Shown here piece after piece: positions 1-60,229 of a stretch of DNA of 64,000 nucleotides. Source of the DNA: Apium graveolens. Lineage: Eukaryota > Streptophyta > Magnoliopsida > Apiales > Apiaceae. Each line of letters opens with the position of its first letter. The first letter of the stretch is position 1. Where the stretch lies: contig NC_133656.1 in the NCBI RefSeq assembly GCF_009905375.1, positions 234,493,111 to 234,557,110 on the forward strand, in the 5' to 3' direction. The notes under the pieces were generated by a model. The model was not told the DNA's origin. It made no database searches and saw only the letters and a program-made list of their open reading frames with translations. The translations under genes were made by a program, and so were the position numbers.

Positions 1-125
1 ATTATGATTGTAACATAATATAATCCCTCTAAAATTAAATAATATCAAGTAGTAATTGGCCAATGACACAACGAGCTTGTGTCGGTCATAGCCTTCCAAC
101 ATGGTAGAAAGTAGTTCTTATTTTT

Positions 126-5694: not shown

Positions 5695-5712
5695 GTACTA
5701 AAGCCAATCACA

Positions 5713-8951: not shown

Positions 8952-9140
8952 GACGAATAAAGTAAATCTGTAAATGATAAACACATAACAACACTTAGCA
9001 AATATTCAATTTCATTTCAAAACACTATATGAATCGGGTCTTTATTCATAAGTGTCTCCCACTAGTTTATCTAATTTTTTCAACCCCCTAAGTGAAAATT
9101 AAGCATTCATAATGCTAGTGGGAATAGGGATCCTACATTC

Positions 9141-32800: not shown

Positions 32801-33277
32801 ATTTTCTATGAGTTATAAAGAGAAAGAGGGTTTTGGAGACGAAGAAAGTAAAAGTTGCATTGTGAAATTAGAGAAAGATAAAAGTGAGATTCGAAAATGA
32901 AATTGGCTTTTATACTTCCTGAATTAACACATACAAATGATTAAAAAAAATAAATTAAACAACCAATGATAATTACCAAATATAACCATTTAAAAATAAA
33001 GTAAACTGTAGAAATTCTAAAACTGTCCATCAACGTATACATACAAAACTGTAAGTATTCATCAACGGATAAGGTTTTAGGATCAACGGTTATAATTGAT
33101 CAACGGATGACAAGTATACTAGTACTTGTTGAGGAATGATACATCTAGAAATATTTTTGACTTTCAAGAATTATCCGTTGAATAAGTAATTTTGATATAG
33201 CCAAAATTTCACTTCTCAAGAAAATCAAATTTAGTTCTGGCTGCATTACAAATTGCATGGACATCACTAATAGTAAA
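32801..33277 (-). other. B spacer between RNase H and extra ORF
   Basis: No gene. It holds AACGGAT-type motifs near 33065, 33100 and 33172 and several degenerate ones. D (50060-50603) and C (57841-58360) have a motif-bearing spacer at the same place. A subgenomic promoter or leader for the extra ORF is conceivable. Confidence 0.6.
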
Positions 33278-37968: not shown

Positions 37969-39256
37969 TGTTAGGAATATGTTGTGTACTTGATGATAAG
38001 CTAAATAAAACACCTTAGTAGATTTCACTTAGTGAATTTTGTAGCACCCGACGGATGATCAATTATAATCCCGACGGATGATCAATTATAGTCCCGACGG
38101 ATGACTAATTCATATCCACCGGGTGAGTAGCTTATGTAACAATAAGTAATGTAGCACATTTCTGCAAACAACTTTGTGTAGATTCTGTAGTAGCATATGA
38201 GTCATGTTGACTACTAGTAGATATGCAGAATAGGTTGATTAATTGTAAATATTAGATGTCTTGTAATTTTGCATAAATGAAATGGAGTCAAGTGTCAAAT
38301 AGCTACCCGACGGATGATCAACAAAGCTATCCGACGGATGATCAACAAGGTTACCCGACGGATGATCAATTCAAATATCTGTTGATAATGACAACACAGT
38401 CACATGCGTTGGGTGTTTGCAAAAGAAATAGGGCAGCCTGTTTAGCAGGATAATGAGAACAAATATGCATTACCATTTCCATGCAAGGTATGAAGATTTT
38501 CAAAGATGTTGGAATAGAGTAGTGAAGCAGCATGGAGTTAGAATTTATATATAAACCAAGTGTAGCTAGTAGAACAAATAACTAATCAAACACATTTTAG
38601 AAGAGAAATAGAAAAAGTTGTAACTGTTAAGAATTTCTCTATAGTTTGTTTGTTCACTTGTAAAAGCAGCTGTGAGCTATTCAAGCTTCACAGGGTTCTC
38701 TCAATATATATATATATATGGTGGATACATTCAAATCCACCAGAAATTTTTAAAGACTTGTGTTTTTATTACTTGTGTTTTGATTTATATAATTCTTTCA
38801 TTCTGCACTTTGCAAATCAAACACTTATATATTATTGAGTTAGAATAATCAAAGTTTACCATGTAAACTTGGTGATATATAAACCAAATGTAGCTAGTAG
38901 AACAAATAACTAATCAAACACATTTTAGAAGAGAAATAGAAAAAGCTGTAACTGTTAAGAATTTCTTTGTAGTTTGTTTGTTCACTTGTAAAAGCAGCTG
39001 TGAGCTATTCAAGCTTCACAGGGTTCTCTCGATATATATATATATATCTGGTGGATACATTCAAATCCACCAGAAAGTTTTAAAGACTTGTGTTTTTATT
39101 ACTTGTATTTTGATTTATATAATTCTTTCATTCTGTACTTTGCAAATCAAACACTTATATATTATTGAGTTACAATAATTTTAAAAATCTTAAAAAGGAG
39201 CCAGAATTACATTCGACCCCCTTCTGTAATTCTTGTTGTATTGTTAGGGAATAACA
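37969..39256 (+). repeat. C 5' LTR with internal tandem duplication
   Basis: 1288 bp, TGTTAGGAATATG...GGGAATAACA. Six CGACGGAT motifs lie at about 38049-38365. The promoter-to-R region is duplicated with a 328-bp period (38551 and 38879), giving two TATATAAA boxes (38548-38555 and 38876-38883) and two CTGGTGGA-type hairpins. Confidence 0.9.
38551..39178 (+). repeat. 328-bp tandem duplication in the C LTR
   Basis: Copy 1 is 38551-38878 and copy 2 is 38879-39178, with high identity. Both include the AAAGCAGCTGTGAGCTATTC stretch, an AT-repeat run and the hairpin. Copy 2 runs on into the normal LTR end. Confidence 0.88.
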
Positions 39257-39258
39257 AT

Positions 39259-39270
39259 TGGTATCAGAGC
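39259..39270 (+). promoter_or_regulatory. C primer binding site
   Basis: TGGTATCAGAGC two bases after the LTR end, complementary to initiator tRNA-Met. Confidence 0.92.
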
Positions 39271-39316
39271 AAGCTCTTGAAGTACAAAGAGTTTAAAGAT
39301 CACAACAAACAGCAAG

Positions 39317-41710
39317 ATGAACAAGAAGGATGTTGGAGTTAAGATTCCATTTCTGGACAAAGACAACTATCACCACTGGAAGGTGAATATGCACCTACAT
39401 CTCCTTTCTCAAGATGAGGCCTATGTGGATTGCATAGAGAGAGTTCCTCATGTACCAATGAGAGCTGCAACAGGGAATGAACCATCTGTTCCCAAGCCTA
39501 GGCATGAATGGTCAGATCCTGATATTGAGCAAGTCAGGAAAGACAAGAAGGCCATGAATGTATTGTTCAATGGAGTTGATGGTGATATGTTGGATAACAT
39601 CATTAACTACAAAACAGCCAAGCAGGTTTGGGATACAATTCAGATTATGTGTGATGGTACTGAGCAAGTAAGGGAGAATAAGATGTAGCTGCTAATTCAG
39701 CAATATGAGCACTTTCATTGTGAAGATAGTGAGTCTCTCACTGACATTTTTAGTAGATTTCAAAAACTACTAAATGCTCTGAAATTGCATGGAAGATTCT
39801 ATTAGACAAAAGACTCTAACCTTAAGTTCCTTAGATCTCTTCCAAAGGAGTGGAAACCAATGACAGTCTCATTGAGAAACTCTCAAGATTATAAGGAGTT
39901 TACTTTGGAGAGACTGTATGGCATCCTGAAAACTTATGAGCTTGAAATAGAGCAAGATGAGAGGATGGAGAAAGGAAGGAAGAAAGGAGGGTCCATAGCA
40001 CTGGTTGCTGAGTTAGAGAAAGAGAAAGAGATGAAGGTAGAAGCTGTTGAGTCTACTTCAAAGGCCTGTGAGAACAAGGGTAAAGGGCTGGTAGCAGAAA
40101 ATGAAGACAATTTGAGCCAAGATGACATGGATGATATTGATGAGCATTTAGCCTTTCTTTCCAGAAGATTTTTCAAGCTCAAGTTCAAAAAGAACTTTGG
40201 AGCAGCCAAGCCAAATAGAAACATGGTGGATAAATCTAAATTTAAATGTTTCAAATGTGGCTTGGCAGGGCACTTTGCTAGTGAGTGTAGAAAGTCAGAT
40301 TCCAGTAAAAAGAAGTTTGAGCCTGTTGATTATAAACAGAAGTATTTTGAGTTGCTCAAGCAAAAGGAAAGGGCTTTCATTACACAGGAAAACGATTGGG
40401 CAGCTGATGGTTTGGATGAAGATGAGGATGTCAGCTATGTCAATCTAGCCCTAATGGCCAAGTCTGATGAAACAGAAACTAGTTCTTCAAGTAATCAGGT
40501 AATCACCACTAACCTAGCATATTTATCTAAAGCTGAGTGTAATGATGCAATTAATGACATGTCTACAGAATTATATCACTTGCGTGTTACACTTAAGTCA
40601 CTCACTAAAGAAAATGCTAAACTTAAAGAAAATAATTTGTTTTTAAGTGAGAGGAATAATGTGCTAGAATCTCAGTTTATTGAATTTGAAAAATTGAGAA
40701 TTGAGTGTAAGATTGCTAAGGATGAATTAACTGAGTCCTTGAAGAAAGAAGAGATTTTGAAGAAGCAGCTTGAATGAGAACAAGAGGTGATTAAGGCATG
40801 GAAATCATCCAGAGATGTTCATGCTCAAATCACTAAAGTTCAAGGTATTGAATCCTTTTGTGATGCAGCCTGGAAAAAGAGTAAGGAGAAGCTGAAATCT
40901 AATTTGGTTGAAGGATTGCTAACAGATGTGGACTCGACGGATGATGAGAGTCATTCGTCGAATAATCAAAAGGATTATTCGTCGAGTGACATAAATCCTC
41001 ATATGTCGGCTGTAAGCAAACATGTGAGCAAAACCAAACTTGTCAAGCTGAATGAGAAATATGGATCAGTTTCCAAAAACTTTGTTCTAGAAGAATCAAG
41101 TCAAGTGAAGAAGGATAAGAAAGTTAATGTTGGTCATATGTCTATCAAGCAATTGAATGACAGATTGGAGAAGATTGAGATTAAAACAGAAGCTAAAAGA
41201 AAAAATAATAGAAATGGGAAAGTAAGGATTAACAAACATACCAACTACACACCTGATAAATATGCTCCAAGAAAAATATGTGTTAAGTGTGGTAGTGTTA
41301 ATCACTTGTCTGTTAATTGCAAAATTGCCATGCCTACTCCTATGTTTGTACCCTCTTCTTTTCTCAACATGACTGCCATGCCTTCTATGCTTATGAATGC
41401 TATGTTTGCTCAGAATATGAATGCACAATTTGCTAATATGCCATTTGCACCTAATCCTTATTATGCTGCATTTAGTATGCCTCAAATGCCATTTAACATG
41501 CCTTACTGGAATAACATGTTTGCAAATAGCATGCCTTTCCCTGTTAATCAAAGTGTACATGATAATTTTGTTTTAATGACTGGTTTCGAAGGTCCAACTC
41601 AAATAACTAAGGATGAATCAGAAATTCCCAAGTCAAATGAGATCAAACCTAAGAAACCAAAGAAGAAAGCTAACAAGGCAGGACCCAAGGAAACTTGGGT
41701 ACCAAAATAA
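39317..41710 (+). pseudogene. C gag
   Basis: Starts MNKKDVGVKIPFLDKDNYHH. Nonsense codons near 39686 and 39804 and one at about 40775 break it, but all pieces (39317-39688, 39860-40777, 40787-41710) share one frame. Features: UBN2-like gag domain, zinc knuckle CFKCGLAGHFASEC (near 40246), a coiled-coil stretch (about 40520-40780), a motif cluster at 40932-40985, a second knuckle CVKCGSVNHLSVNC (near 41280), a Met/Pro/Asn-rich segment, and the end GPKETWVPK-stop. Confidence 0.88.
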
Positions 41711-41730
41711 ACTTGATTTGGTTTTGATGT

Positions 41731-43655
41731 GTGCAGGGAAACAGAAAGAATCTTTGGTACCTGGATAGTGGTTGTTCAAGGTACATGACTGGAGATTCTA
41801 CCCTGCTCATAGAGTTCAATGAGAGAGCTGGCCCAAGTATTACCTTTGGAGATGACAGCAAGGGTTATACTGTGGGATATGGCTTGATTTTAAAAGACAA
41901 TGTCATCATTGAGGAGGTTGCTCTAGTGGATGGTCTCAAGCATAACTTGTTGAGTATCAGCCAGCTTTGTGATAAGGGCAATTCAGTAACCTTCAACTCA
42001 GAAGCCTGTGTTGTGACAAACAAAAGGAGCAACAAAGTGGTTCTCACTGGTGTAAGAAGAGGAAATATGTATCTAGCTAACTTTAACTCATCTAATACAG
42101 AATCTGTCACTTGTCTTCTCAGTAAAGCAAGTCAAGATGAAATTTGGCTATGGCACAAGAAGCTATCCCATCTAAACTTCAAAACCATGAATGAGCTTGT
42201 TAAGAAAGAACTAGTTAAAGGAATTCCTCAAGTGGAGTTTTCTAAGGATGGACTGTGTGATGCCTGCCAAAAGGGAAAGCAGATTAAAACATCATTCAGA
42301 AAGAAGCTTGATTCAATAATTGAAGAACTTTTGCAATTGCTACACATGGATTTGTTTGGACCAGTCAATGTGTTGTCCATCTCAAGGAAAAGATTTTTCC
42401 TAGTAATTGTAGATGATTTCTCAAAGTTCTCTTGGACATATTTCCTAAAGTCTAAAGATGAGGCTAGTGAAATCATCATCAATCAAATAAGGCAAGGCAA
42501 CAATCATCCTGATTTTAAAGTAAGAAGAATCTGGAGTGAAAATAGAATTGAGTTCAAGAATTCTGTGATAAGATCATTTTATGAAGAGAACGGGATAATG
42601 CATGAGTTTTCTGTAGCAAGAACTCCACAACAAAATGGAATAGTGGAAAGAAAGAACAGATCTCTTATTGAAGCTGCAAGGACAATGCTTGAAGAATCAA
42701 AGTTACCAACATATTTCTGGGCTGAAGCTATGAATACTGCCTGCTACACTCAGAACATTTCCTTGATTAATCAAGTAAAGTATATGACACCTTACCAATT
42801 GTTCAAGAACAAGAAGCCAACTATAAATTTTCTTCATGTTTTTGGCTGCAAATGTTATATCTTGAGAAATCAGACTGATCAACATGGGAAGTTTGATGCT
42901 AAATCAGATGAAGGATTTTTTGTTGGATATGCTGTGGGAAAAGCATATAGAGTCTACAATCTGAGAACCAACATTGTTATGGAATCAATACATGTTGTGT
43001 TTGATGATAAAAAGATTGAAGGACTGAAAGATGAAGATTCTCATGAGAGTCTCAAATTTGATAATATGGAGATGGTTAGTGATGATAGTGATGATGAAAG
43101 TGATCAGGAAACAATGGTTAAGGATAATGCAGAAAAATCTTCTACAAATGAAGCACAAAATCCAACATCTGTCGAGTTGGCAAATGCCTCATCTGTCGGG
43201 AGATAATCTGCTTTATCCGTCGGGAGACAATCAGCCTCATCCGTAGGAACACAAAGTGCACCATCCGTCGGGTCATCAAAAGAAGCTGAAAGTCAGAATA
43301 GATCACTTATAGAAAATTCTCCTTTCTCAAATCAAAGATTCAAAAACTCAGGGGGAGTTTCTAATAATCAAAACTTAGTCACACATCAAGACAACAATGA
43401 GGCCTCTTCATCTAAAGCTAATCTACCTCAACAAAGAAAATGGACAAAAGATCACCCCTTTGAGCTCATCATTGGTGATGTGTCTTCTAGAGTTCAAAGA
43501 AAGAGAGCAACTCAAGAAGAATGTCTATATAGCAGCTTCCTATCAAAGGAAGAACCAAAGAAGGTAGAAGAAGCTTTGTTGGATCCTGATTGGATTTTAG
43601 CTATGCAGGAGGAGCTAAACCAATTTGAAAGGAATGAAGTATGGAAGCTGGTACC
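41731..43655 (+). pseudogene. C protease and integrase
   Basis: Frame from about 41731 to 43206. The protease has LWYLDSGCSRYMTGD. The pre-integrase WLWHKKLSHLNF and integrase HMDLFGPVN follow. The second catalytic position reads IWSENRIEF where D has IRSDNGTEF, so Asp is replaced by Glu. The third motif QNGIVERKNR is intact. A stop near 43204 falls in the motif-rich linker (SSVGR repeats). The frame resumes to VWKLVP at 43655, where D was inserted. Confidence 0.88.
43651..43655. repeat. D target-site duplication, left (GTACC)
   Basis: GTACC at 43651-43655 and again at 56415-56419, directly flanking TGTTAGG...AATAACA. C coding homology continues across after removal. Confidence 0.95.
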
Positions 43656-43941
43656 TGTTAGGAATATGTGTATCAGTTTGATGATAAGTTAAACAAAACA
43701 CTTAAGTAGAAATCTAGTGATTGTAGCCTCAACGGATAAGACCATCTTGGCTATCCGTTGAAGGAGTAGCTTTACTTAGCAATAAGTTTAGTATTGTAGC
43801 ACATTTCATTCTCTGGTTTCAAGTTGTAATTCTTAGATGTTGTAGGAAATTATCAGTCATGTTGACTACTAATGGATATAAAAATAGGAGGGCTAATTGT
43901 AAATATTTCATGCCTTGTAATTTTGTATAAGTGAAGAAGTA

Positions 43942-44138
43942 TCAACGGATATTGAAGACCTTCAACGGATAAGAAACAAAGCTTCAACGGATGTCTCTAA
44001 TGCTTCAACGGATAATATCCATCAACGGATAAGTGCTTCAACGGATAAAGACTTCAACTGATAATGCATCAACGGATAAAGCTTCAACGGATAAAGCCTC
44101 AATGGATAAGGCATCAACGGATGAAGCCTTGAACGGAT
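43942..44138 (+). repeat. 15-bp minisatellite of CAACGGAT units in the D LTR
   Basis: Motif starts at about 43942, 43962, 43983, 44005, 44022, 44038, 44053 (variant), 44069, 44084, 44099 (variant), 44114 and 44130. Spacing is 15-16 bp in the second half and up to 22 bp in the first. Copied in the 3' LTR at about 55598-55794 with a few mutated units. Confidence 0.9.
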
Positions 44139-44539
44139 GCTTGGTTCATTAGCAGTTGATAGTGACAATTCACAAGCTGACAGAGGCACATGGGTTGACA
44201 GAGACAAACTGGAATGTGGAAGCCTCTAGGAGGAATCAAGAAAATGCAGCATTCCCATTCTGATGCAAACAAGGAAGTATTCAAAGATTCACAGATTATC
44301 CTAGATTGCATTGGATAGAGAAATGAAGAAGAAACATGTGAAGAATCCTTTCAATTGTATTTTACAGTTTTGTCTTCCCTTTTAAACTTGGTGTTATATA
44401 AACCAAGTAGCAGCTAGTAATTAGATAAGAATTTTCCTGAGCTGTTTAGAAATATCAAGAGAGAAAATCATCTAGTTTGTACTAGGAAGCAGCTGTGATT
44501 TAATTCTTTGAATCACAGATTTTCTAAAATAACACATCT

Positions 44540-44563
44540 CTGGTGGAACAACAAATCCACCAG
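44540..44563 (+). other. Conserved hairpin in the D 5' LTR
   Basis: CTGGTGGA 44540-44547, TCCACCAG 44556-44563, about 140 bp downstream of the TATA box, hence probably in R or U5. The partner in the 3' LTR is at 56196-56219. Confidence 0.78.
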
Positions 44564-44760
44564 AAAAGTTTTTAAGTTCTTTGTGTTCTTTACATTTATG
44601 TTTGAATATATATCTGTCTGTATCAGCTTCAAGCAATTCACACACATTTGTTCACTTAAACACTTAGCCTTAGAAACTGCTCAAAACTTGAAAAAGTTTT
44701 GAGATTTACATTCAACCCCCCTTCTGTAAATCTCATTGTTAGTCCACTGGGAATAACAAT

Positions 44761-44772
44761 TGGTATCAGAGC
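44761..44772 (+). promoter_or_regulatory. D primer binding site
   Basis: TGGTATCAGAGC two bases after the 5' LTR. It is complementary to initiator tRNA-Met and identical to C. Confidence 0.93.
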
Positions 44773-44818
44773 AAGCTCTTAACATACAAAGAGTTTAAAG
44801 ATCTATTTTGCTAGCATT

Positions 44819-47257
44819 ATGAGTGCACAGAAGAATCCTCCTGCTACCATCATGAGTAGGAAGGATATTGGTATAAAGATCCCAGTCCTGGAAAAAGATA
44901 ATTATCATCACTGGAAAGTGAAGATGCATTCACATCTTCTTTCTCAAGATGAAAGCTACATCAACTGTATTGAAAATGGACCTCACATCCCTCACAAAGT
45001 AGCCACAGCTGCTACTGCAACAGTTGCTGTTGGACAGTCCATTCCCAAGCCAAAAGCAGAATGGACTATTGAAGACATGGAAGAAATCCGCAAGGACAAG
45101 AGAGCCATGAACATTTTGTTTAATGGCTTAGATCAAGATATGTTTGACAATGTCATCAATAGCCAAACTGCAAAGGAATTTTGGGATACTGTACAAATCA
45201 TCTGTGAAGGTACTGAGCAGGTCAGAGAGAACAAGATGCAGCTTCTTATTCAACAGTATAAATATTTTCACTTTGAAGAAGGTGAATCATTAAATGATAC
45301 CTTCAACAGATTTCAGAAACTGTTAAATGGATTGAAGCTGTATGGTAGAGTGTACCAAGTCAAGGATTCCAACTTAAAATTTCTTAGGTCTCTGCCAAAG
45401 GAATGGAAGCCCATGACTGTCTCTTTAAGAAATTCTCAAGATTATAAGAACTTCACACTTGAAAGATTATATGGAATTCTGAAGACTTATGAACTTGAAA
45501 TGGAGCAGGATGAGCTGTTGGAAAAGGGAAAGAGAAAAGGAGGAACAGTTGCTCTTGTAGCTGACAGTGAGAAGATGGAAGCCAGGAATTAGGAGAAGAC
45601 ATTGCCAAGTCTCAAAATTGGCACAAGCAAATCAGAATCAAGCAAGGGTAAAGAGCAAGCAGCTGAGGATAAAGACAATTCCAGTCAGGATGACTCTGGT
45701 GATGTTGATGAACATCTGGCTTTTCTGTCCAGGAGGTTTGCAAAGATGAAGTTCAGAAAAAATACAAAGTTCACTAAGCCAAACAAAAACATGGTGGACA
45801 AATCAAAGTTCAAATGTTACAACTGTGGCATTAGTGGACACTTTGCAAGTGAGTGTAGAAAGCCAACTTCTGATAAAAAGAAATTTGAGCAAGTTGATTA
45901 CAAAAAGAAGTATTTTGATTTACTCAAACAAAAGGAAAGATCTTTTCTCACTCAAGATGATTGGGCAGCAGATGGGGTCAATGAAGATGATGATATGGAA
46001 TATGTCAACCTAGCCCTGATGGCTAATTCTGATGAAAATGAAACTAGTTCATCAAGCAACCAGGTAATTACTACTGATCTCTCTCAGCTTTCTAAACATG
46101 AATGCAATGAAGCCATAAATGATATGTCCAATGAATTATATCATTTGCGTGTTTCCCTTAAATCACTAGCAAAAGAAAACACTAGGATCAAGGAGAATAA
46201 TGTGTTTTTAAGTGATAGGAATGTTGTGTTAGAGGATCAGGTAATTGAGCTTGAAAAGATTAAACTTAAATGCTTGACTGTTGAGAGTGAACTAGCAGAA
46301 GCTGTTAAGAAAGTAGAAATTCTTTCTAAACAGTTAGAAAGTGAGCAAGAGGTAATCAAGGCCTGGAAAACATCTAGGGATGTTAGTGTTCAGATTGCAA
46401 AGGTTCAGGGAATTGAATCATTCTGTGAGGATGCCTGGAAGAAAAACAAAAAGGAGTTAGAATTAATTGATGGATTGTCAACGGATGTGGAATCAACGGA
46501 TGATGAAAGTTATCCGTTGAAGGAAGAAAAGGAGCATCCGTTGAAGGCTCATCAATTAAAACAGGCAAGTTCTTTTAAAAATAAAAACCTCAATAAAAAG
46601 AATGATTCAACTCTCAAGAACTTTGTCAAAGAAGGAGCTAGCACATCCAGAGATGTCAGTAAGGTGAATATAGGACACATGACTTTAGATCAGCTGAAAG
46701 ATAGGCTTAAGTTGGTTGAGGATAAGAAGGAAACTAAAAGAAAATCTAAAAGAAATGGGAAGGTAGGGATTAATAAACATAACAATTACACACCTGATAG
46801 GTATGCTCCTAGAAAAAGCTGTGTGCATTGTAAAAGTATTAATCACCTATCTGATAATTGTAAATCTGTTAAAAATGCTCCCATGCCTTCAAATCCCTCC
46901 ATGCCTAACATGTCTATGTCACCTCTGCATGCTATGCCTGTTATGTCTCACCAGAATCCCCATGCACATTTTGCAAACATGTCATATATTAATAATCCTT
47001 ATTTTACTGCATTTAGTATGCCTCAAATGCCATACAATATGCCTATGTGGAATAACATGTTTGCACAACCTATGCCTTATCAAATTCAATCAAATGTGTT
47101 AAATGATTCTGTGACTAACCCTACACTTCAACCAACCACATCTGAGACCAAGGTTGACCCAAAGTTACCTAAGTCAAAAGATGCAGGAGGAATGAAGTCT
47201 AGGAAAAAGACTAACAAGGGTGGACCCAAGGAAACTTGGGTACCAAAATCAACTTGA
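44819..47257 (+). pseudogene. D gag with a single in-frame TAG
   Basis: ATG at 44819 (MSAQKNPPATIMSRKDIGIK). About 257 codons encode the UBN2-like gag domain (NYHHWKVKMHSHLL, FNRFQKLLNGLKLYG). Then comes one TAG at 45590-45592, and the same frame stays open to 47257. After it: zinc knuckle CYNCGISGHFASEC, a coiled-coil region (NELYHLRVSLKSLAKEN), the motif cluster 46478-46544, a second knuckle CVHCKSINHLSDNC, a Met/Pro/Asn-rich segment, and GPKETWVPKST-stop. It would package genomic RNA. Gag at over 800 codons is long for copia, as in SIRE-like elements. Confidence 0.9.
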
Positions 47258-47270
47258 TTGATTTTGTTGT

Positions 47271-48503
47271 GTGCAGGGACAAAGAAGGAATCTATGGTAC
47301 TTGGACAGTGGTTGTTCAAGACACATGACAGGAGATTTCACCCTGCTCACAGAGTTTGAGAAGAGAGCTGACCCTAGCATAACCTTTGGAGATGACAGCA
47401 AAGGATTCACTATGGGATATGGCTTGATTTCAAAAGAAAATGTCATCATTGATGAAGTTACATTGGTTGATGGTCTCAAATATAATTTATTGAGCATCAG
47501 TCAACTATGTGACAGAGGGAATATTGTTTCCTTCAATTCTGAAGCCTGTATTGTCACAATTAAGAAGGACAATAAAGTGGTTCTAACTGGAGTTAGAAAA
47601 GGGAATGTGTACTTAGCTGATTTCAACTCTACAGATGCAGAATCCATTACTTGTCTTCTCAGCAAAGCAAGTCCAGTTGAAAGTTGGCTATGGCACAAGA
47701 AGCTGTCCCATTTGAATTTCAAGATAATGAATGATCTAGTCAAAAAGGACTTAGTTAGAGGAATGCCTCTAGTGGAATTCACAAGGGATGGACTGTGTGA
47801 TGCTTGTCAGAAAGGAAAGCAAAAGAAAGTATCATTCAGTAAGAAGCTTGAATCTGCAATTGATGAACCACTACAACTTCTACACATGGATCTTTTTGGA
47901 CCAGTCAATGTATTGTCAATTTCAAGGAAAAGATATTGCCTAGTGATTGTAGATGATTTCTCAAAGTTTTCATGGGTTTATTTTCTTGGATCAAAGGATG
48001 AAGCTAGTGAAATCATCATCAATCATATCAAGCAAGTCAACAATCATCCTGATTTCAAAGTAAGGAATATTAGGAGTGACAATGGAACTGAGTTCAAGAA
48101 TTCAACCATGAAGTTGTTATGTGAAGAAAGTGGGATCATGCATGAGTTCTCAGCTCCAAGGACTCCACAACAAAATGGTGTGGTGGAAAGGAAGAACAGA
48201 TCACTAATTGAAGCTGCAAGGACAATGCTTGAAGAGTCAAAACTCCCAACTTATTTTTGGGCTGAGGCTGTTAACTGTGCATGTTACACTCAGAACATTT
48301 CTCTAATCAATCAAGCAAAAGGCATGACTCCCTATCAATTATTCAAGAGAAGAAAACCAACTTTAAACTTTCTACATATCTTTGGTTGCAAATGTTACAT
48401 CTTAAGGAATCAATCTGATCACAAAGGGAAGTTGATGCAAAGGTTGATGAAGGAATATTTGTTGGTTATTCTGCTGGAAAATCATATAGGGTCTACAATC
48501 TAA
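47271..48503 (+). pseudogene. D protease and integrase
   Basis: The pol frame is +1 relative to gag and starts after a 3'-splice-site-like stretch ending GTGTGCAG at about 47276. Protease LWYLDSGCSRHMTGD; pre-integrase WLWHKKLSHLNF with the CDAC pair; integrase catalytic Asp in HMDLFGPVN, Asp in IRSDNGTEF, Glu in QNGVVERKNR. The integrase core looks intact. A one-base deletion near 48434 (GGGAAGTTGATG against GGGAAGTTTGATG in C) shifts the frame, so residues after it are not the true sequence. Confidence 0.92.
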
Positions 48504-50059
48504 GAACCAACATTGTCATGGAATCTGTACATGTTGTGTTTGATGATAAAAAGATTGATGGACTAACAGATGAAGGACATCATGAAGGACTCAAATTTGA
48601 CAATATTGAGATAAATTGTGATGATGGTGAAGATGAGAATGATGAAGAACGCATCTCAAGAGGGATTCAAAATCTGCCTTTGGATAATGCACAGAATGCT
48701 GCATCCGTTGAAAGTCATAGCTCAGCTTCCGTTGAAAGAAGCAATGTAGCATCCGTTGAAAGACAAAGTGCATCATCCGTTGAAGTTCGTAATGAAGCAT
48801 CCGTTGATCACAGTCTGTCAACGGATAATCAATTCACTTCATCAGTTGATAGAACTCCCAATTCTTCTCAAAGGATCAGCAACTTAGGGGGAGTGTCAAC
48901 CAATCAACATTCTACCTCACATCATGACAATACTGAGGCAACCTCATCTAGAGCTAATCTACCATCTCAAAGGAAATGGACCAAAAATCACCCTTTTGAA
49001 CTGATCATTGGTGATGCCACATCTAAAGTGCAAACTAGAAGGGCTACTCAAGATGAATGTCTGTACAGTAGCTTTCTATCACAAGAGGAACCTAAGAGAG
49101 TAGAAGAAGCTCTTTTGGACCCAGATTGGATTTTAGCAATGCAAGATGAGCTAAACCAATTTGAGAGAAACAAAGTATGGAAGCTGGTACCCAAGCCAAA
49201 GAACAAGAGTTCTATTGACACAAAATGGGTATTCAGAAATAAGATGGATGAAAATGGCATTGTCATAAGGAATAAAGCCAGATTGGTTGCTAAAGGCTAT
49301 TCTCAACAAGAGGGAATAGATTTTGATGAAACATTTGCTCCAGTTGCCAGACTTGAAGCCATCAGAATCTTTCTAGCCTATGTAGCTAATGCCAATTTCA
49401 AAGTCTATCAAATGGATGTCAAGAGTGCATTTCTAAATGGGGAATTAGAGGAAGAAGTTTATGTAAGCCAACCTCCAGGATTTGAAGATCCAAATTTTCC
49501 AGACTATGTGTATTATCTGTTGAAAGCACTCTATGGACTAAAGCAAGCACCTAGAGCCTGGTATGAGACTTTGTCAAAATTCCTTCTAGATAATCACTTC
49601 ACAAGAGATGCAGATTATGCAGGCTGTAAAATACACAGGAAAAGCACAACTGGTACCTGTCAATTTCTAGGGAACAAGCTTGTGTCATGGTTCAGCAAAA
49701 AGCAGAATTTTGTTTCCACATTAACAGCTGAAGCTGAGTACATTGCTGCTGGTAGTTGCTGTGCACAGATACTATGGATGAGGAATCAACTATTTGACTA
49801 TGGTCTGACTGTTGACAAAATTCCAATATTTTGTGATAACACAAGTGCCATTGCCATTACTGAAAATCCAGTGCAGCACTCAAGAACCAAGCACATTGAT
49901 ATCAAGTACCACTTCAGTAGGGAACATGTGATGAAAGGTACAGTGGAACTTCATTTTGTTCCAAGTAAAAAGCAGATTGCAGACATATTTACCAAACCAC
50001 TTGATGAATCAACATTCAAAAGATTAGTAAGTGAGCTAGGTATGCTTAATTATTTATAA
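48435..50059 (+). pseudogene. D integrase end, RT and RNase H with in-frame deletion
   Basis: Open to 50059. It begins with the integrase C-terminal part and a linker rich in SVE repeats (48701-48850). RT fingers/palm follow ([53 protein letters not shown]). At HFTR it jumps to DADYAGCK in RNase H. About 555 bp present in C (about 56833-57388), including YVDDIIFGS, are gone with the frame intact. RNase H continues ([46 protein letters not shown]) to SELGMLNYL. No RT activity is possible. Confidence 0.92.
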
Positions 50060-50603
50060 TTTATGTCATCTATATAATTTGCCTTGAAGCCTGAAATGAA
50101 TTTGCTGCAAGAACAAAGTTGGCTTTAAGTAAGACTTATCCTATCAACGGATATTCCCTATCCGTTGAAAGCCAAAATTGTTCTATCAACGGATGTTCAT
50201 TATCCGTTTAAAGACAAATACATTTCTGGTAATTTTATCCTTCAACGGATAAAATGGTGTTGATCATCAACGGATAACTATTTACCTTATCCGTTGAAGT
50301 GTCACATCGGTTACTATAAGTGAGTTACGGCTGTTGATTCTTTTACTCAACCGTTGATACAGATATACAGTGTTGTATGTCTTTGTATTTAAGGTAGTTT
50401 TCAGAATTTCTACAGTTTTATTTATTCTTGAACGGCTGTAACTTACTTAAAAGTATCATTTAATCATTTTATTTACGTTTTAATTCAAGAAAGTATAAAA
50501 GCCTAATTGAACTCTTATTTTCACTTTACGCTTTCTTGCAATTCTTATTCTCCTTCTCTCCCAAAAATTCTCAAGTTTTTCTCTGCAACCTCTACTCACA
50601 ACA
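50060..50603 (+). promoter_or_regulatory. D motif-rich spacer before the extra ORF
   Basis: Non-coding between the pol stop and the extra-ORF ATG. Seven AACGGAT/ATCCGTT words lie at 50144-50297, including perfect inverted pairs 50144-50153/50159-50168 (10 bp, loop of 5) and 50267-50277/50287-50297 (11 bp). Then an AT-rich stretch with AGTATAAAAGCC at about 50489-50500 (TATA-like), CTTCTCTCCC, and the ATG at 50604. This arrangement suggests a separate promoter for the extra ORF. Confidence 0.6.
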
Positions 50604-53600
50604 ATGGCACCAGTAGTCAAAATTATGTCTCAAATAGGATTTGTTTATGGAAAGAATAATTTTGTAGCCTTGGCTGAAAAGAATGAAGCCCATTCTGATT
50701 ATCACAAGATGATGGACTTCATCAAAAACTGCAAACTAAGCTATGCAATGCTGGAATCCCCAACCATCTACTGTGATGTGATTGAGGAGATTTGGACAAC
50801 TGCAGAGTTCAACTCCACAGATATGACTATTGCCTTCTCTCTCAAAGGTAAGGACTATTGCATTAGCTGTGATGATATACAATCTTGCTTTAAGTTGCCT
50901 GAGAATAATGCCATGACACCACACACTGATAAAGATGTATCTGCTATGTTAGATTCCATAGGCTATGCTTTTGATTCTGCTAGTTTAGGTAGTATTAGAA
51001 GGAAAGGCCTTAGGAAAGAATGGAGTTTTCTTGGAGATGCCTTCATTAAAGTTTTCTCTGGGAAGATTAGCAATTTTGATGCCATAACTTCATCTCTTGT
51101 TAATATGCTCTATATGCTAGTTTCTGATAGGTACTTTAATTTTAGCAACTGTGTTATGCTAGAATTAGGATCCAGATTAGGTAACAAAGCTAATAGACCA
51201 CATAACATCTACTATGCTAGATTCTTTATGTTATTGGCTAATCATGTTGCTAAAGGTTTGGTTATATCAAATGAGAATAATAAACTCAAATGCTGGGCAC
51301 AAGAGAAAAGGGTCTTTGCAGACCTTTTGAGAATGAACCTCAATAGCCAGGTGCCATTGGTATACTTGCCAATCATGAATGCACCACAGGTAAGTGAGGT
51401 AAACACTTCTATAACTCCTACTATTTCCAACCCCATTGTTTCTTTGCCCTCTAGTGTGGCCATGGAATCTGTGTCTTTGTCCAAACAGGTTTCTGCCAAA
51501 GCCACCAAAACCAAAGTTTCAAAACTCAAGTCAAAGAAACCTACCTCTGTTGTTTCTCAAAAGACAACAGTTGTGACAACTACCATAAACCTGAAGGGAG
51601 TGAACAAGGTGTGAGTGGTGAGGGGAGGGGTGAACATCAAGAAACCCCCCAGGATAAGGTGGGAGAGGTGAGTGGTACCCAAGCCAGCCAAGCCACAGTC
51701 TCTCAAAAGACTGTGGTGGTTCAAAAGGAGTCCAACACATCCCTAGTTGCATCCTCCCAAAAGGATGTAACTATTGAAAATAGTCCCCAACCAGGGACAC
51801 AGAACAAAAGAGGGAGGGACACTGAAGCCACACATTCACCAATTAAAGCCTTTTCAAGGAAGAAGAAGGCCAAGACCCTAGTTTCCACACAAGGGACATA
51901 CACAGCACAGATACATCCACCTGTAACTGAGCCTTCACAAATTCAGCTTGATGTGATTCCAGCAAATGTGGAATCACAGCCCCATTCTCTCATAATAGAA
52001 ACACACCAATCATCAAACTCTCCATCACCCTCTCTGGATGTGGATATGATATTCACATCAATTCCTAATTCTCCCTCATTAAAACTCAGGGAGGAGCCCC
52101 ACTCAAAACCTGATGATCATCATCTCTTAGATGATTTGTTGGATCATCAGCCAATTCTTTCAGATGTAGTTGAAGAATCTGTGTTACCTCACTTAAAATC
52201 AATTCCCACAGATTCAACAATTATGTCACTTTCTATATCTACATCTTTTCCTTCTTCAACGGATATCTCTCATTCGTTGACAAGTGGTTGTTCTTCAACG
52301 GATAAGCTTAACAACAGTTATCCGTTGATACCATCAGTTTCCACTTCAACGGATACTCCCTATCCGTTGATGGTCTCTACACACATAACAGAAACAATAC
52401 CAACTGTAGAGGACATGGCTACTGTACAATAACTTTTAGGTTTGAGGGAAGGGAGTGATCTTTTGAGTGAGAGGTTGGGTTGCTCCCAGGCAAAAGGAGA
52501 GGTTGAGAGTCACCATATGCATGCTATTTCTTCCAGCATGGCAAAAGTGAGTGAGGGGAGTGCCACCTTAGAAGGTGAGGGTGAGGGTGTGAGGGTGTGT
52601 GTGAGCCAGGGGGAGCCCCTGATGCAAGAAAATAGAGAAAAAGAGAGAAAGGCAGGTACAGAAGCTATAAGGGTGGATCCAGCCATTGCTAGTGAGTCAA
52701 TGAAAGTGGATGATGCAGAAAAGGAAAGACAATTTCAGCAACATTTCAAAGCTGCAATTGATAACATTTCCTTGGATGCTGACACCTTTACTCATCCTGT
52801 TTCAGCCTATCAATTATTGGCTGCTCAGGGCAATGTGGAGGCAGAACAGACATTACACATTGTACACACTTCAGAATCTCTTCTCAGAGACAAAGCTGTT
52901 GTTAACAGGCTGTCTTCTCAAGCTGGTGAGCCATCTGAAGAATTTGGAGTGAATTCTAATGATGATGACTCTAATTCTTTGGATGAGAGCATGAACTTAG
53001 GGGGAGTAGCAGGCCAAAGTTCTGTTCCTGATCTTCCTGAATGGGCATGGGCAAAAGCCTCAACACCAAGAGAGTTTAGTGTCACTTTGATTAAACAAGT
53101 CATGACAATTCAGCAGGCCCTTCAGGAGACTACAGATGCTGGTACCAAGGCAATTCTTCAAGCTCATCTGGAATCTCTGCATCTCTTGCAGTTGCAGCAT
53201 TTCCAACAAAATCTAAGTGTGGATGAGCTCAAACAGGACATTGCTGATCTGAAATCCTACAATGCTGAGAAGTTGGATTCAGTCATACCTTATGGTACTA
53301 TGCAAGATTTGTTGGGGAGACTGAGGAAAGAATCTGATGCTGACAAGAGACTGGCCAGATTGGAAAACAGGGTTCAAATCATTGAAGATTCTATGGTCAC
53401 CATTCTTCAGAATCAACAAACTCAAACAAATCTACTCATGCAGCTGGCCAATGCACAAGGCTTGACTCCTACCCTTGATGATAACAAAAAGGGGGAGAAT
53501 AAAGGGAAAGGGGAAGGAGAGCCATCAACAACAGTTCAAATTTCTCAAGTGCTAGTTCCTGTCATCACCACTTCTCCAATTATTCAAATCAAAGGAAAGC

Positions 53601-55123
53601 TTGATGGAATTGATCTAATCCAGATAGCAGCAGCTGAATTGCAAGTCAAAGAGCAAAGGAAGAAGATTGATGAAAAGATGCAACAAATATTTGGTTCTAT
53701 AACTTCTCAATCACAATCTGTGAAGCACAGCACAAAAGTGGAATCAATTATTATGGAACTCAAGCCAGTAGGGAGGAATAAGGTTGGAGAGACTTCTTCC
53801 ATGGATTTGAAACATATGGTCCTCAAGCCCAACAACAGATCCAATAAGGACTCTACAAAGAATCCTCTGAAAGAAGTGGATTTTCCTCTTTCAAAGGCTG
53901 ATGAGGACAAGCTTTTGGGTAGAAGTATCTCATATCTCAAAGAGGCCATGGATGTGGCTGTAAGGAGAAACATGGCTATTATCTTCAGAGAGGGAAAGAG
54001 CATATATGTGATGCAAGGACATCCCAAATTCTCAATAGCCAAAAGGGAAGAAACCAGAAGGTTGAAGGAAGAAGCCAAACAGCTAAAGACTGACAAAAGA
54101 GCACAAGCAAAGCTTGACAAACAGCTAAAGTCAAGTCAGGCTGGAGAACAGAAAGAAATTGAAGACAAAAGTGAAGATGAAGCTATGGGGGACATGGTTG
54201 GTACTGAGATGGAGGAAAGAAGTAAGGGAAGAGAAGAATGGCAGAAAGGGAACAGAAAGAAGGTCAATGCAAAGAGAAAAATGGTAGATAAGACTGAAGA
54301 AACCCAATCAATATCCAAACCACTACCCTCTATTCATGAACCCATTGTGCCTGACCCCTTCATGAACATTCATGGTGAAACAATCATTCCCAAGGAGGAA
54401 CCAATTGATTGGGATACCATCAAATTACCCACCTTCCTAACCTCTTCTCCACCATCAAAGAAGCAGAAAAGAAGAATCAAATCAACACCCTCTAGAGCCT
54501 CAATCAAATTCACACAGAAGCCTAAGCCTAAACCTCAAGCCTCTAAAGATGATTATGTTCACATCTGTGACATAAAAGAATTTTCAGACATTGAACTCTA
54601 TCTGGATGAGCTGGAGGAAGTAAGGGGAATAGCTGCCTACAGACAGCTACCAGAAAGACTAGTGTTCAAATACAAAGGAGATTGGGAAAGAACCTGGCCT
54701 CTTTACAGAATTCTGAATGAAGGCTACTCTACCTTGATTAGAGTCTACTCAGCCATACAAAGGGATTCTGGCTTTACCAGGACTACCAAGACTGAGATTC
54801 TCAACAAGATTGCCAACATAAGGAAAACTTGGAGGGAGCCCAATGCTTTGCCTAGAACTTTACTCATTAAAGAAAGAGGAATTACAATTCACAAATCACA
54901 TCACTGGTTGATGGAGTTCAGAGACAACAAAGGAGTCAGAAGATTTTTTAGAATTGAAGATCAGCTCAAGATTGCCAGTAATGAAACTCTCAAGGATATG
55001 CAATCTAAGTTGGACATCAATGAAGAAGATGAAGCTGAATTCTACAGACAACTTCAACTTCAAATAGAGGAGAATGACAGGAGGCTAGGAAAGAAAACAA
55101 GGGATCAAAGGAAAAGGAAGTAA
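50604..55123 (+). pseudogene. D extra 3' ORF of unknown function
   Basis: About 1500 codons in three pieces: 50604-51614, 51611-52432 after a frameshift near 51605, and 52433-55123 after a single TAA at 52430. The N-terminal 230 residues are conserved in B and C (PVVKIMSQIGFVYGKNNF, CISCDDIQSCFKLPE, LRKEWSFLGDAFIKVFSGKI). The middle is Ser/Thr/Pro-rich and low complexity with the motif cluster 52255-52370. The C-terminal 500 residues hold coiled coils, a basic KKQKRRIKS stretch (possible nuclear signal), a conserved block HICDIKEFSDIELYLDELEE, and a basic end. No signal peptide or clear membrane segment, so env-like identity is not supported although the position matches the env-like ORF of SIRE elements. 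Confidence 0.85.
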
Positions 55124-55301
55124 TCTGCTCAGGCTAAAGGAGCACCCTTGGAAATAATGTAACTCTTCAATTCCATTTCAGCATACACATTTTTGTAGCA
55201 CTTTTGAATTTCCGCTTTATTACAGTTAATATATTTGTCAAGTGTTTTGTTATCATCAAGCCAAACCCAAATTTATGCCTACAGTTCTAGTAGACATAAA
55301 T

Positions 55302-55311
55302 AGGGGGAGAT
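55302..55311 (+). promoter_or_regulatory. D polypurine tract
   Basis: AGGGGGAGAT immediately before TGTTAGG of the 3' LTR. Confidence 0.92.
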
Positions 55312-56414
55312 TGTTAGGAATATGTGTATCAGTTTGATGATAAGTTAAACAAAACACTTAAGTAGAAATCTAGTGATTGTAGCCTCAACGGATAAGACCA
55401 TCTTGGCTATCCGTTGAAGGAGTAGCTTTACTTAGCAATAAGTTTAGTATTGTAGTACATTTCATTCTCTGGTTTCAAGTTGTAATTCTTAGATGTTGTA
55501 GGAAATTATCAGTCATGTTGACTACTAATGGATATACAAATAGGAGGGCTAATTGTAAATATTTCATGCCTTGTAATTTTGTATAAGTGAAGAAGTATCA
55601 ACGGATATTGAAGACCTTCAACGGATAAGAAACAAAGCTTCAATGGATGTCTCTAATGCTTCAACGAATAATATCCATCAACGGATAAGTGCTTCAACGG
55701 ATAAAGACTTCAACTGATAATGCATCAACGGATAAAGCTTCAACGGATAAAGCCTCAATGGATAAGGCATCAACGGATGAAAGCTTGAATGGATGCTTAG
55801 TTCATTAGCAGTTGATAGTGACAATTCACAAGCTAACAGAGGCACATGGGTTGACAGAGACAAACTGGAATGTGGAAGCCTCTAGGATGAATCAAGAAAA
55901 TGCAGCATTCCCATTCTGATGCAAACAAGGAAGTATTCAAAGATTCACAGATTATCCTAGATTGCATTGGATAGAGAAATGAAGAAGAAACATGTGAAGA
56001 ATCCTTTCAATTATATTTTACAGTTTTGTCTTCACTTGTAAACTTGGTGTTATATAAACCAAGTAGCAGCTAATAATTAGATAAGAATTTTCCTGAGCTG
56101 TTTAGAAATATCAAGAGAGAAAATCATCTAGTTTGTACTAGGAAGCAGCTGTTATTTAATTCTTTGAATCACAGATTTTCTGAAATAACACATCTCTGGT
56201 GGAACAACAAATCCACCAGAAAAGTTTTTAAGTTCTTTGTGTTCTTTACATTTGTGTTTGAATATATATCTGTCTGTATCAGCTTCAAGCAATTCACACA
56301 CATTTGTTCACTTAAACACTTAGCCTTAGAAACTGCTCAAAACTTGAAAAAGTTTTGAGATTTACATTCAACCCCCCTTCTGTAAATCTCATTGTTAGTC
56401 CACTGGGAATAACA
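55312..56414 (+). repeat. D 3' LTR
   Basis: 1103 bp, same length and ends as 43656-44758. Differences are scattered substitutions, including two motif units changed to CAATGGAT and CAACGAAT. TATA box near 56051-56058; hairpin 56196-56219. Confidence 0.95.
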
Positions 56415-56419
56415 GTACC
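56415..56419. repeat. D target-site duplication, right (GTACC)
   Basis: Second GTACC. C sequence resumes with CAAGCCTAAAGG, the RT N-terminal linker. Confidence 0.95.
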
Positions 56420-57327
56420 CAAGCCTAAAGGAAACGAATCCAATTGACACCAAATGGGTATTCAGAAATAAGATGGATGAAAATGGCATTGTAGTAAGGA
56501 ACAAAGCTAGATTGGTTGTTAAGGGCTATTGTCAACAAGAAGGAATAGATTTTGATGAAACTTTTGCTCCTGATGCAAGACTTGAAGCCATCAGAATTTT
56601 CTTAACCTATGCAGCTCATGCCAATTTCAAGGTCTATCAAATGGATGTCAAAAGTGCTTTTCTGAATGGAGATTTGGAGGAAGTCTATATTAGTCAGCCT
56701 CCTGGTTTTGAAGATCCAAATTTTCTAAATCACGTCTACTATCTTTTGAAAGCACTTGATAAACTGAAGCAAGCACCTAGAGCCTGGTATAACACTTTAT
56801 CAAAGTTTTTTTTGGAAAATCACTTCACAAGAGGTACTGTTGATAAAACTTTATTTTTTAGAAATGTTAATGTCTCTAGTATACTTGTTCAAATTTATGT
56901 AGATGATATTATATTTGGCTCTACAGATGAAAAACTTTGCAAAAAGTTTGCCAAATTGATGCAAAGTAAGTATGAAATGAGCATGATGGGAGAACTAACT
57001 TACTTTCTTGGTTTGCAAGTTAAGCAAGTTAGTGATGCAACATTCATTAGTCAAACTAAATACATTCATGATCTTTTAAAGAAGTTTGATCTAATAGATT
57101 GCACATCTGCAAAAACTCCCATGGCCACTGCAACTAAGCTTGAATTAAACACTACTGAAAAGTCTGTGGATATTTCAAGTTATAGGGGCATGGTTGGTTC
57201 ACTTCTATACTTAACAGCTAGTAGGCCAGATATAATGTTTGTTATTTATCTTTGTGCTAGATTTCAGGCTGATCCTAGAGAATCTCATTTAGTAGCTATT
57301 AAGAGAATTTTCAGATATCTCAAGTGA
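56420..57327 (+). pseudogene. C reverse transcriptase, resumed after D
   Basis: A stop and frame change lie just after the junction. From 56473: [37 protein letters not shown] (one Glu codon missing against D), [12 protein letters not shown], catalytic YVDDIIFGS with YVDD at 56896-56907, [25 protein letters not shown]. It ends at a TGA at 57325 replacing a Gly codon in RYLKGTP. It supplies the segment that D has lost. Confidence 0.88.
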
Positions 57328-57840
57328 ACACCAAAACTTGGCATTTGGTACCCTAGAGATTCTGGTTTTGATCTAACTGGTTATTCAGATGCAGATTATG
57401 CAGGTTGTAAGATAGACAGAAAAAGGTACAATAGGAACCTGTCAATTTTTAGGGAATAAGCTTGTGTCCTGGTTCAGTAAAAAGCAAAATTCAGTTTCAC
57501 TTCTATAGCTGAAGTTGAATATATTGTTGCTGGTAGTTGTTGTCCACAGATTTTGTGGATGAAAAACCAATTGTTGTACTATGGTCTACAAGTGGATAGG
57601 ATTCCTATTTTCTGTGATAACACAAGTGCAATTGCCATCACTGAAAATCCAGTACATCATTCAAGAACAAAGCACATAGATATCAAGTACCAATTCATAA
57701 GGGACAATGTGATGAATGGTACAGTGGAATTGCATTTTGTTCCAAGTGAAAAATAGCTTGTATACATATTTACCAAGCCACTTGATGAATCCACCTTTTC
57801 AAGGTTGGTAAGTGAGTTAGGTATGCTCAATTATTCTTAA
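57328..57840 (+). pseudogene. C RNase H
   Basis: WYPRDSGFDLTGYSDADYAG, then a frameshift near 57423 and another near 57506. 57553-57756 is clean ([33 protein letters not shown]), with a stop at 57754, then [11 protein letters not shown] and [13 protein letters not shown] at about 57838. Confidence 0.85.
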
Positions 57841-58360
57841 ATCATTTCAGATATTTTGTAAGTTATTATGCAGTCAGAAATTTAATTGATCTTTCTATTT
57901 TGATGAAATTTTGGCTAAGTCAAAATTTACATCCCGACGGATGCTCATTATCCATTGAGTTTGATCATCCGTCGGAATACAATTTGTCTATAAAAATCAA
58001 TTACTATTCTAGAATATTTTATAACTCGACATATAACTATTTTATCTTCATCCGTCGAATTGTCACAATCCTAGCCGTTAATTCTCTGCTCATTATCCAT
58101 CGAGTATACTTACAGTTTGTAGGCATGACACGACGGATAAGTGATGGAATTTTTACAGATTATTCATTTTTAAACGGCTATTTTGGGCAATTTTTATTGG
58201 TCCTTTATTTTACTTTATTATGTTTGTCAGTTTATCTCTGAGATAGTATAAAAGCTAAATTGTTTTTCATTCTTTTCTTTTATCATTCTCAAGATTCAAT
58301 TGCTCTAATTTCTTTCTTCTCAAAAGCAAACTCTCTCTGTAAACTTTCAAATCTTTAGCA
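57841..58360 (+). promoter_or_regulatory. C motif-rich spacer before the extra ORF
   Basis: Counterpart of 50060-50603. GACGGAT/ATCCGTC words lie near 57935, 57967, 58050 and 58132, plus degenerate ATCCATTG and ATCCATCG forms. AGTATAAAAGC near 58244-58254 is TATA-like and conserved with D. The ATG of the extra ORF is at 58361. Confidence 0.55.
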
Positions 58361-60229
58361 ATGGCACCTGTAGTGAAAATCATGTCTCAAACTGGTTACA
58401 TCTATAAGAAAAACAACTTCTCAACTTTAGAAACAAGGAGATTCAACAGTCTGGTGACTATCACAAAATGATGGATTTTGTGAAGAACTACAAACTCAAC
58501 TATGACATGCTGGAATCACCCACCATTTACTGTGAGGTTGTAGAGAAGATGTGGACAACTGCAGTGTACAACTTAACAGACAAGATCATCACTTTCACTC
58601 TAAAAGGTAAGCAATTTTGCATAAATAGTGATGTTTTCAAAGCATGCTTTAAGATTCCTGATAATACTTTAACTACTTCACACACAAATACTGACATTGT
58701 TAACATGCTTAACTCTATGGGCTATGCACTCACTACCTCTAAGTTAAGTGAAATTAGAATGTTGGGTCTTAGGAAAGAATGGAGTTATCTGTGTGATGTG
58801 GTAACTAAAGTGTTTTCTGGTAAGATTAGCAATTTTAATTCTATCAATATAAGTACTTAAATTTCAGTGATTTGGTTTTGTTTGAGTTAGGCTTTAAGTT
58901 AGGAGAACTTAATAAGAGAGGTAAAAGTGTCTATTATGTTAGATTCTTTATGATGCTTGCTAACCATCTTATTGAGAATATTGTGATTGAGAACCCAACC
59001 AACAAGCTAAATTGTTGGGTTCAAGAAAGAAGAATTATTACAGATCTTAATAGAGCAAATCATCACAAGGAGGTACCCTTATACTATTTTCCAGTAATGG
59101 AGGGACCTCCGGTAAGTGAGGTAATTTCTACTGTCTCTACTCTTCCAACCTCACACATTTCTTTGCCTTCTAGTGTAGCCATGGCATCTGTGCCAATGAC
59201 CAAATAGATGCCTACCCAAGCTTCCAAAACAAAAGTTCCAAAATTTAAAGCTAAGAAAGCCCCTTCTGATTTCTTTCAAAAGAAATCAGTTGTAAAATCT
59301 ACTACACCTAAAGAGGGGAGTGTGAAGGAGGGTAAGAAAGGTGAGGGACAGGGTGAAAGTCAAAGAAACCCTAAGAATAAGGCTGGAGAGAAGAATGTAC
59401 CCAAACCTAGCTACACCACAGTTTTCCAACAAACCGTAGTTGTTAATAAGGTAATAAGCTCATTACTAGTTTCATCCTCCCAAAAGGATGTCACTATTGA
59501 AACAAGCTCTCAACCAGGAGCACAGGCCAAAAGGGGTAGGGACACTAGCTCACCACAAACTTATGCTAGAAAGAAAAGATCAAAAACCCATGGGGATGCA
59601 CAGGGCACACACACAGTGCAAACTGGTGCTAAAGACCCAGTCATTGCACCATCTCAAAGTCAGGTTGATGTGGCTCCAATAAATATGGAGTCACAACAAA
59701 AATCTCTTATATTTAAAGCACCTGATACACCAAATTCTCCCACACATTCACTGGATGTTGACATGATCAATACATCACTTCCAAATTCTCCATCTTTAAC
59801 TATCTTGGAGAAGCCAAAAATCCAAGTAAGTGAGCATCATCTTTTAGATGATTTGTTGGCTCATTTACCATTCCTTTCTGAGACTGTTGAGACATTTGTG
59901 CCAAAATTTTCATCAATCTGCACAGAGTCTACAATAGTCTCCACTCCGAACTGTTTCATTTCTACTATCCCGATAGATATTCATCATCCGTCGAGTAGTG
60001 ATTGTATCTCGACGGATAAGCCTAACAGCAGTCATCCGTCGGATAGCCATACTACTAACCCGATGGATATTCCTCATCTGTCGGGTATCTCTGCACAATT
60101 TCAAATTTCTTCAATTCTCACAAGTGCATAAGACTTAATATTAGTGCAATCACTCTTAGGACTGAGGGAAGGGAGTGATTTGAGTGAGAGTGTGGATTGC
60201 TCCCAGGAAAAAGGAGAGGAAAAGAGTGA
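58361..60229 (+). pseudogene. C extra 3' ORF, first part
   Basis: Begins MAPVVKIMSQTGYIYKKNNF; a frameshift follows near 58420. Pieces: 58468-58860 (KGKQFCINSDVFKACFKIPD, LRKEWSYLCDVVTKVFSGKI), a deletion of about 45 bases near 58850, 58872-59207, and 59208-60131 with the motif cluster 59969-60087. It then reads LLGLREGSDL and is cut by solo LTR 2. Homologous to D 50604-52540. Confidence 0.85.

Follow-up and report, generated by a model that had tools for sequence, protein, structure and literature searches.

Why should one short word recur in the long terminal repeats (LTRs), the genes and the spacers of a retrotransposon, always spelled in the same way, and recur at corresponding places of a related element with another spelling? 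The question is raised by a window of 64,000 nucleotides of Apium graveolens (contig NC_133656.1), which contains two nested Ty1/copia elements, here called C and D, and a third related element, B, on the minus strand. Element D is inserted in the pol gene of C, and is bordered by the 5-bp repeat GTACC, at 43651-43655 and 56415-56419. Recognition by a sequence-specific factor appears to be the best reading of the word; the evidence and the competing explanations are given below.

One word, two spellings

Exact counts on both strands give, for the heptamer AACGGAT in D, 12 copies in the 5' LTR, while gag has 4, the pol linker 5, the spacer that follows RNase H 7, and the extra open reading frame (ORF) 5, in agreement with a preliminary description of the window; the cluster described in the 3' LTR is also there, with 9 copies where about 10 had been estimated. 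Element C carries 16 copies of GACGGAT, distributed over all five places where they had been reported, and no copy of AACGGAT. The spelling is thus uniform within an element and differs between elements, as had been proposed: of the exact occurrences of the octamer CNACGGAT, all 40 in D have an A at position 2, while C has 16 with a G and one with a T. Element B is a third carrier beyond C and D, with 9 copies of the A spelling, CAACGGAT, in its LTR, its pre-env spacer and its env.

Dinucleotide shuffles, 200 for each part, yield mean counts between 0.000 and 0.015 per part. In the 34,730 bp of the window outside B, C and D, neither CAACGGAT nor the G spelling, CGACGGAT, occurs, and each heptamer is found once (at 3450 and 15575). 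An unsupervised search for 8-mers shared by all five parts of D returns nine; seven of these include the word's core, and the remaining two, ACTTCAAC and TCCTTCAA, are the weakest and resemble its 5' flank. The same search in C returns three, each overlapping CGACGGAT. Taken together, the exact counts, the shuffles and the unsupervised search establish as real the counts, their five locations and the difference in spelling.

Protein constraint, which the preliminary description already judged insufficient, can be rejected as the cause, since the same word is used in differing phases and orientations and does not survive synonymous shuffling. The plus word translates as STD in gag and env, where its minus counterpart gives YPL or HPL (HPS in the env of C); the linker reads the minus word in another phase, as SVE or SVD (SVG in C). 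None of 5000 synonymous shuffles matched the observed count in any of three D pieces, nor in the pieces C pol2 and C env3; 5 of 5000 did so in C gag, which has one exact copy, and the piece C pol1, with zero exact copies, is uninformative.

Matched sites of C and D

The sites of the two nested elements share their register: spacings are 15, 18 and 24 bp in gag, four times 24 in the linker, and 15, 24, 24, 27 and 15 in env. Starting from the D clusters in gag, the pol linker and env, we picked 15 pairs by equal spacing. Two C members, at 40920 and 59971, are too degenerate for a one-mismatch scan; the D linker sites 48819 and 48841, with no counterpart in C, were excluded, and the spacer and LTR sites are unpaired. 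At position 2, an A in D faces a G in C at 13 of these sites, the other two showing one A and one T. The other positions are mostly unchanged between C and D (positions 3 and 7 at 15 of 15 sites, 1 and 8 at 14, 4 at 13, 6 at 12, and 5 at 10), whereas identity in the flanking columns ranges from 3 to 13 of 15 sites, with a mean of 55%.

In these regions, D-to-C changes from A to G (or T to C) have a background rate of 135/1190, computed with the motif sites included. The corresponding binomial values for the position-2 difference are 4e-11, and 3e-8 when the linker, whose array might have arisen by duplication, is left out; both are to be taken as guides, because matched sites are not strictly independent, those of the linker array least of all. 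Positions -1 and -2 also tend to go from T to C (9/15 and 7/15), which brings the consensus of C nearer to CCCGACGGAT.

CpG content

Dozens of CpG-bearing copies of the word persist where nearly all other CpGs have been lost, including those between copies. In D, motif copies cover 480 of 12,759 bp and hold 46 of 56 CpGs (36 of 46 when the 3' LTR is set aside), against 42 of 60 in C and 13 of 49 in B, fractions that are partly obtained by construction, since copies are defined by a word that holds a CpG. The informative counts are those outside copies: observed over expected, they are 3/29.9 in the cluster flanks and 7/407 in the remainder of D, 4/21.0 and 14/269 in C, and 1/13.0 and 35/209 in B, whose limits are rough. 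The ratio is 0.67 for the remainder of the window. For the LTR arrays it reaches 1.05 in D and 1.07 in C, versus 0.12 for the whole of D, with a GC content of only 0.38 and 0.37. A passively unmethylated island would have kept the CpGs between copies. The word's other CpG is present at 15 of the 15 matched sites in D and at 9 of 15 in C, which indicates some decay in C. As an observation in its own right, the near-absence of CpG outside the motif in C and D is a lineage-wide loss visible in a young copy.

Protein relatives and the direction of the change

Gag protein relatives served as a proxy for spelling across full-length genomic copies; the spellings of relatives are hence amino-acid readings, and serine has other codons. 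The 7991 candidates with the most shared words were scored, giving 96 matches which, with C and D, make 98 rows; 62 of them have two minus sites readable by regular expression, P0122-P0125 being dropped. The two sites read L at both in 31 rows (one of them with an M), S at both in 23, and are mixed in 8; P0063 and the second site of P0040 are artefacts of site reading. The named protein relatives come from Apium graveolens, Heracleum and Daucus, which agrees with a host in the Apiaceae, and one record (P0051) is filed under a fungus.

A tree of 72 rows (the 62 and ten without two sites), rooted with a distant gag outgroup and computed without the cluster columns, places the S-type sites, which correspond to the G spelling of C, mainly in one clade of 23 rows with an SH-aLRT of 95, nested among L-type rows. 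Within it, the first site reads S in 23 of 23 rows and the second in 22. Apart from C, its members are 22 database proteins, each named Apium graveolens, a species that also has D-like L rows. The gag tree thus gives the G-type reading a single main origin. The nesting makes the A-type reading ancestral, so that the change created CpGs; with a quick tree, several long branches and an imperfect outgroup, whose five rows are nowhere split off together by a single branch because one of them is misplaced, this polarity is likely, not certain.

Several rows weigh against clean switching from one spelling to the other: P0101 reads S then L, four carrot-like rows read PL and next PS, and an S stands at the first site of three rows that lie outside the clade. 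In 5 of the 62 rows the two gag sites share a third state, QL, and a sixth row has QM/QL; this state probably corresponds to a third spelling, CAACTGAT. With just 3 pairs, an independent-pairs test of these two sites has no power. Where both can be read, linker and gag agree: P0040 has PL in gag with SVE/SVD repeats, and P0072 has PS in gag with SVE, SVG, FVK and SIG in the linker; since the C linker also opens with SVE, SVE alone is no marker of the A spelling. The env of P0029 (Apium) contains HPSS, YSSD and YPSS, resembling C.

What could read the word

The repeated word resembles an address label whose spelling keeps up with a DNA-binding protein. It is tempting to conjecture, with a confidence that falls a little short of even, that the word is a half-site in an element-wide array for a sequence-specific double-stranded DNA-binding protein encoded by the element itself. 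Two spellings in one genome make it most likely that the factor is encoded by the element, and the strongest candidate would be the extra, env-like ORF, with Gag and integrase, two other proteins in contact with nucleic acid, as possible alternates. Under this conjecture, the word would be the Apiaceae form of the RM boxes of Sireviruses, extended to gag, pol and the env-like gene; the protein would select copies of the word; its specificity would have shifted by one base in one lineage, where copies were re-spelled to match; and the factor might spread across the element and either activate it or keep silencing off, in the manner of VANC proteins in VANDAL transposons. In D, the extra ORF (50511-55123) is interrupted by a stop at 52430 and by a shift of frame around 51455-51614, so that D's own copy is not intact.

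A broader proposal is more doubtful: the "envelope" of these Sireviruses might be a VANC-like, sequence-specific anti-silencing DNA binder, with the RM boxes and the gag, pol and env copies as its targets, the two diverging together from one family to another within a genome. If true, two old puzzles of a widespread group of plant retrotransposons, the role of RM boxes and that of the env-like gene, would become linked, and a single binding assay could address both, given two proteins and both spellings. The set of 15 matched coding sites would be a natural record of a one-base change in protein-DNA specificity, and VANC-like self-recognition would seem to have arisen, or spread, beyond DNA transposons.

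An unlikely competitor is that the word is a host transcription-factor site, a MYB-type box that was recruited, the C lineage having switched to another host factor. The R2R3-MYB element (C/T)AACNG, as given in the available part of PMC7145699, agrees with the CAACGG of CAACGGAT in D and B, and the likely third spelling CAACTGAT retains it; moreover, LTR arrays sit upstream of a TATA-like box, and Bousios et al. (PMC2829016) report that the factor sites within RM boxes are mainly stress-related. However, the AAC core is broken in the CGACGGAT of C, which reads CGACGG, one set of host factors would have to deal with two spellings in one genome, and the copies deep in gag, pol and env, which an LTR promoter does not need, differ in step. 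We consider improbable a function at the RNA level, where inverted copies would form stems in genomic RNA and pairing would enforce a common spelling: inverted pairs at 15 bp do recur, and the internal clusters fold better than shuffles in 7 of 7 stretches (z from -3.7 to -7.5), yet the D LTR array, almost all in one orientation and the one LTR array that was folded, does not (z +0.55), which weakens this explanation, the copies of the pol linker are nearly all minus, and the consensus is identical in paired and unpaired settings.

Two remaining explanations invoke no reader at all. Slippage or template switching during reverse transcription could spread a spelling by homogenisation, and the fairly regular pitch, of 15-22 bp in D, 23-24 in B and 24 in the linkers, is reminiscent of tandem duplication; but copying would bring flanks along, and at the matched gag and env sites position 2 alone is uniformly different amid flanks with that mean identity of 55%, so that we give this explanation little credit. 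Least credible of all is that the A spelling is the G spelling minus one CpG, through methylation-driven deamination. The step from CGACGGAT to CAACGGAT is indeed a CpG transition, and the elements are strongly CpG-poor, yet decay from G to A is disfavoured by the rooted tree, which puts the A-type reading as ancestral under a rooting that is not firm, and by the second CpG, which undirected loss would strike as well and which D retains at all 15 matched sites.

The elements and their coordinates

Sirevirus hallmarks, as defined in the available part of PMC2829016, are a characteristic primer-binding junction, a polypurine tract followed by AT/TG, and a polyC integrase signal. The junction CA/ATTGG TATCAGAGC is present as ATTGGTATCAGAGC at 39257 in C and 44759 in D; the search for it gave no minus-strand match, the end of B lying outside that search. 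The polypurine tract was sought in D, the 3' end of C being outside the window, and further copies of AGGGGGAG are found in the env-like region (52608, 52999 and 53490) and in pol (48886). The polyC signal near the LTR end reads CAACCCCCC at 44713 and 56369 in D, and ATTCGACCCC at 39211 in C. Both a copia-type gag with a zinc knuckle and the integrase and reverse transcriptase are found, with domain matches to copia families PF14223, PF00098 and PF00665 in D, and PF07727 in C and D.

The LTR pair of D has 17 differences over 1099 compared positions. Compared with C at 56834-57386, element D is missing, at 49613-49618, some 550 bp of reverse transcriptase, the YVDD motif included, and with so few LTR differences this copy was presumably moved by enzymes from another. 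The 5' LTR of C contains a tandem duplication of about 330 bp (38547-39179) that doubles its TATA-like stretches. C breaks off within its env-like region, and the segment 60234-64000, which begins with TGTAACGACCGGG, is perhaps another element. At the other end of the window, positions 1-9588 hold a large inverted repeat in several pieces, whose arms, within 1-3869 and 6366-9588, are 87-96% complementary.

Table 1. Coordinates, in the window, of the three elements and of their word clusters
Feature	Position	Strand	Remarks
Element D	43656..56414	+	env-class Sirevirus copy within C; LTR starts, primer-binding site and polypurine tract by search, LTR comparison
Element C	37969 to 43655, then 56415 to about 60235	+	interrupted by D
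Element B	about 27.0-34.0 kb	-	rough limits
D 5' LTR	43656..44758	+	LTR search/comparison
D 3' LTR	55312..56414	+	LTR search/comparison
C 5' LTR	37969..39256	+	LTR search/comparison
D primer-binding junction ATTGGTATCAGAGC	44759..44772	+	sequence search; definition from PMC2829016
D terminal polypurine tract AGGGGGAG, then AT/TG	55302..55309	+	sequence search
D extra (env-like) ORF, initial open stretch from its ATG	50604..51614	+	candidate DNA-binding domain 50604-51398
D 5' LTR cluster	43730-44138	+	11 exact, 14 at <=1 mismatch; upstream of TATA-like box 44395
D gag cluster	46479..46543	+	4 exact: 2 plus, 2 minus
D pol linker cluster (integrase-reverse transcriptase)	48703..48848	+	5 exact, 2 variants; five minus sites, 24-bp pitch
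D pol-env spacer cluster	50145..50296	+	6 exact, 1 variant; includes two inverted pairs with 15-bp spacing
D env-like ORF cluster	52257..52369	+	5 exact, 1 variant; orientation alternates; spacing 15, 24, 24, 27, 15
D 3' LTR cluster	55386-55778	+	9 exact
C 5' LTR cluster	38049-38363	+	6 exact CGACGGAT
C gag cluster	40920..40984	+	sites 40920 (degenerate), 40935, 40953, 40977; D register
C pol linker cluster	43167..43270	+	five minus sites, 24-bp pitch
C pol-env spacer cluster	57935..58138	+	4 exact CGACGGAT, 2 variants
C env-like ORF cluster	59971..60083	+	six sites, D-like spacing 15, 24, 24, 27, 15; 59971 degenerate
B LTR cluster	27713..27884	-	CAACGGAT and variants, mostly 23-24 bp pitch
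B env-like ORF cluster	31046..31148	-	A spelling
B pol-env spacer cluster	33063..33180	-	A spelling

Comparison with known systems

In VANDAL transposons, VANC proteins have target motifs within the element (Hosaka et al. 2017, PMC5735166). As there, the word studied here is a short within-element motif that differs between related families of one genome, and the candidate element-encoded protein is more diverged than the enzymes. Unlike them, the carriers are LTR retrotransposons rather than Mutator-like DNA transposons, sites also occur in coding DNA, binding by the candidate protein is a prediction, and no match to DUF1985 or DUF287 was found.

The other comparison is with the RM boxes of Sireviruses. 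The available part of Bousios et al. (2010, PMC2829016) describes them in the LTR and before ENV, with element-specific spelling and a concentration of CpG, and mentions additional copies where ENV begins for just two elements. The likeness is close: many copies with a CGG/CCG core stand in the LTR's upstream portion, ahead of a TATA-like box, and again before ENV (50145-50296 in D, 57935-58138 in C and 33063-33180 in B), CpG is concentrated in the copies, and the spelling is particular to each element. This LTR and pre-env part, being an established feature of RM boxes, makes the phenomenon less new. RM units are palindromes with a CGG-CCG core; here the core is CGG, with inverted pairs in the spacer, gag and env, and direct half-sites in the LTR of D, so that the unit is mostly a half-site. 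Unlike RM boxes, the word also forms clusters in gag, the pol linker and mid-env, and two families have matched sites whose words differ in a single base. Relative to what the available part of PMC2829016 contains, these gag, pol-linker and mid-env clusters, the one-base difference kept in step across matched sites, and the structural lead to VANC are new.

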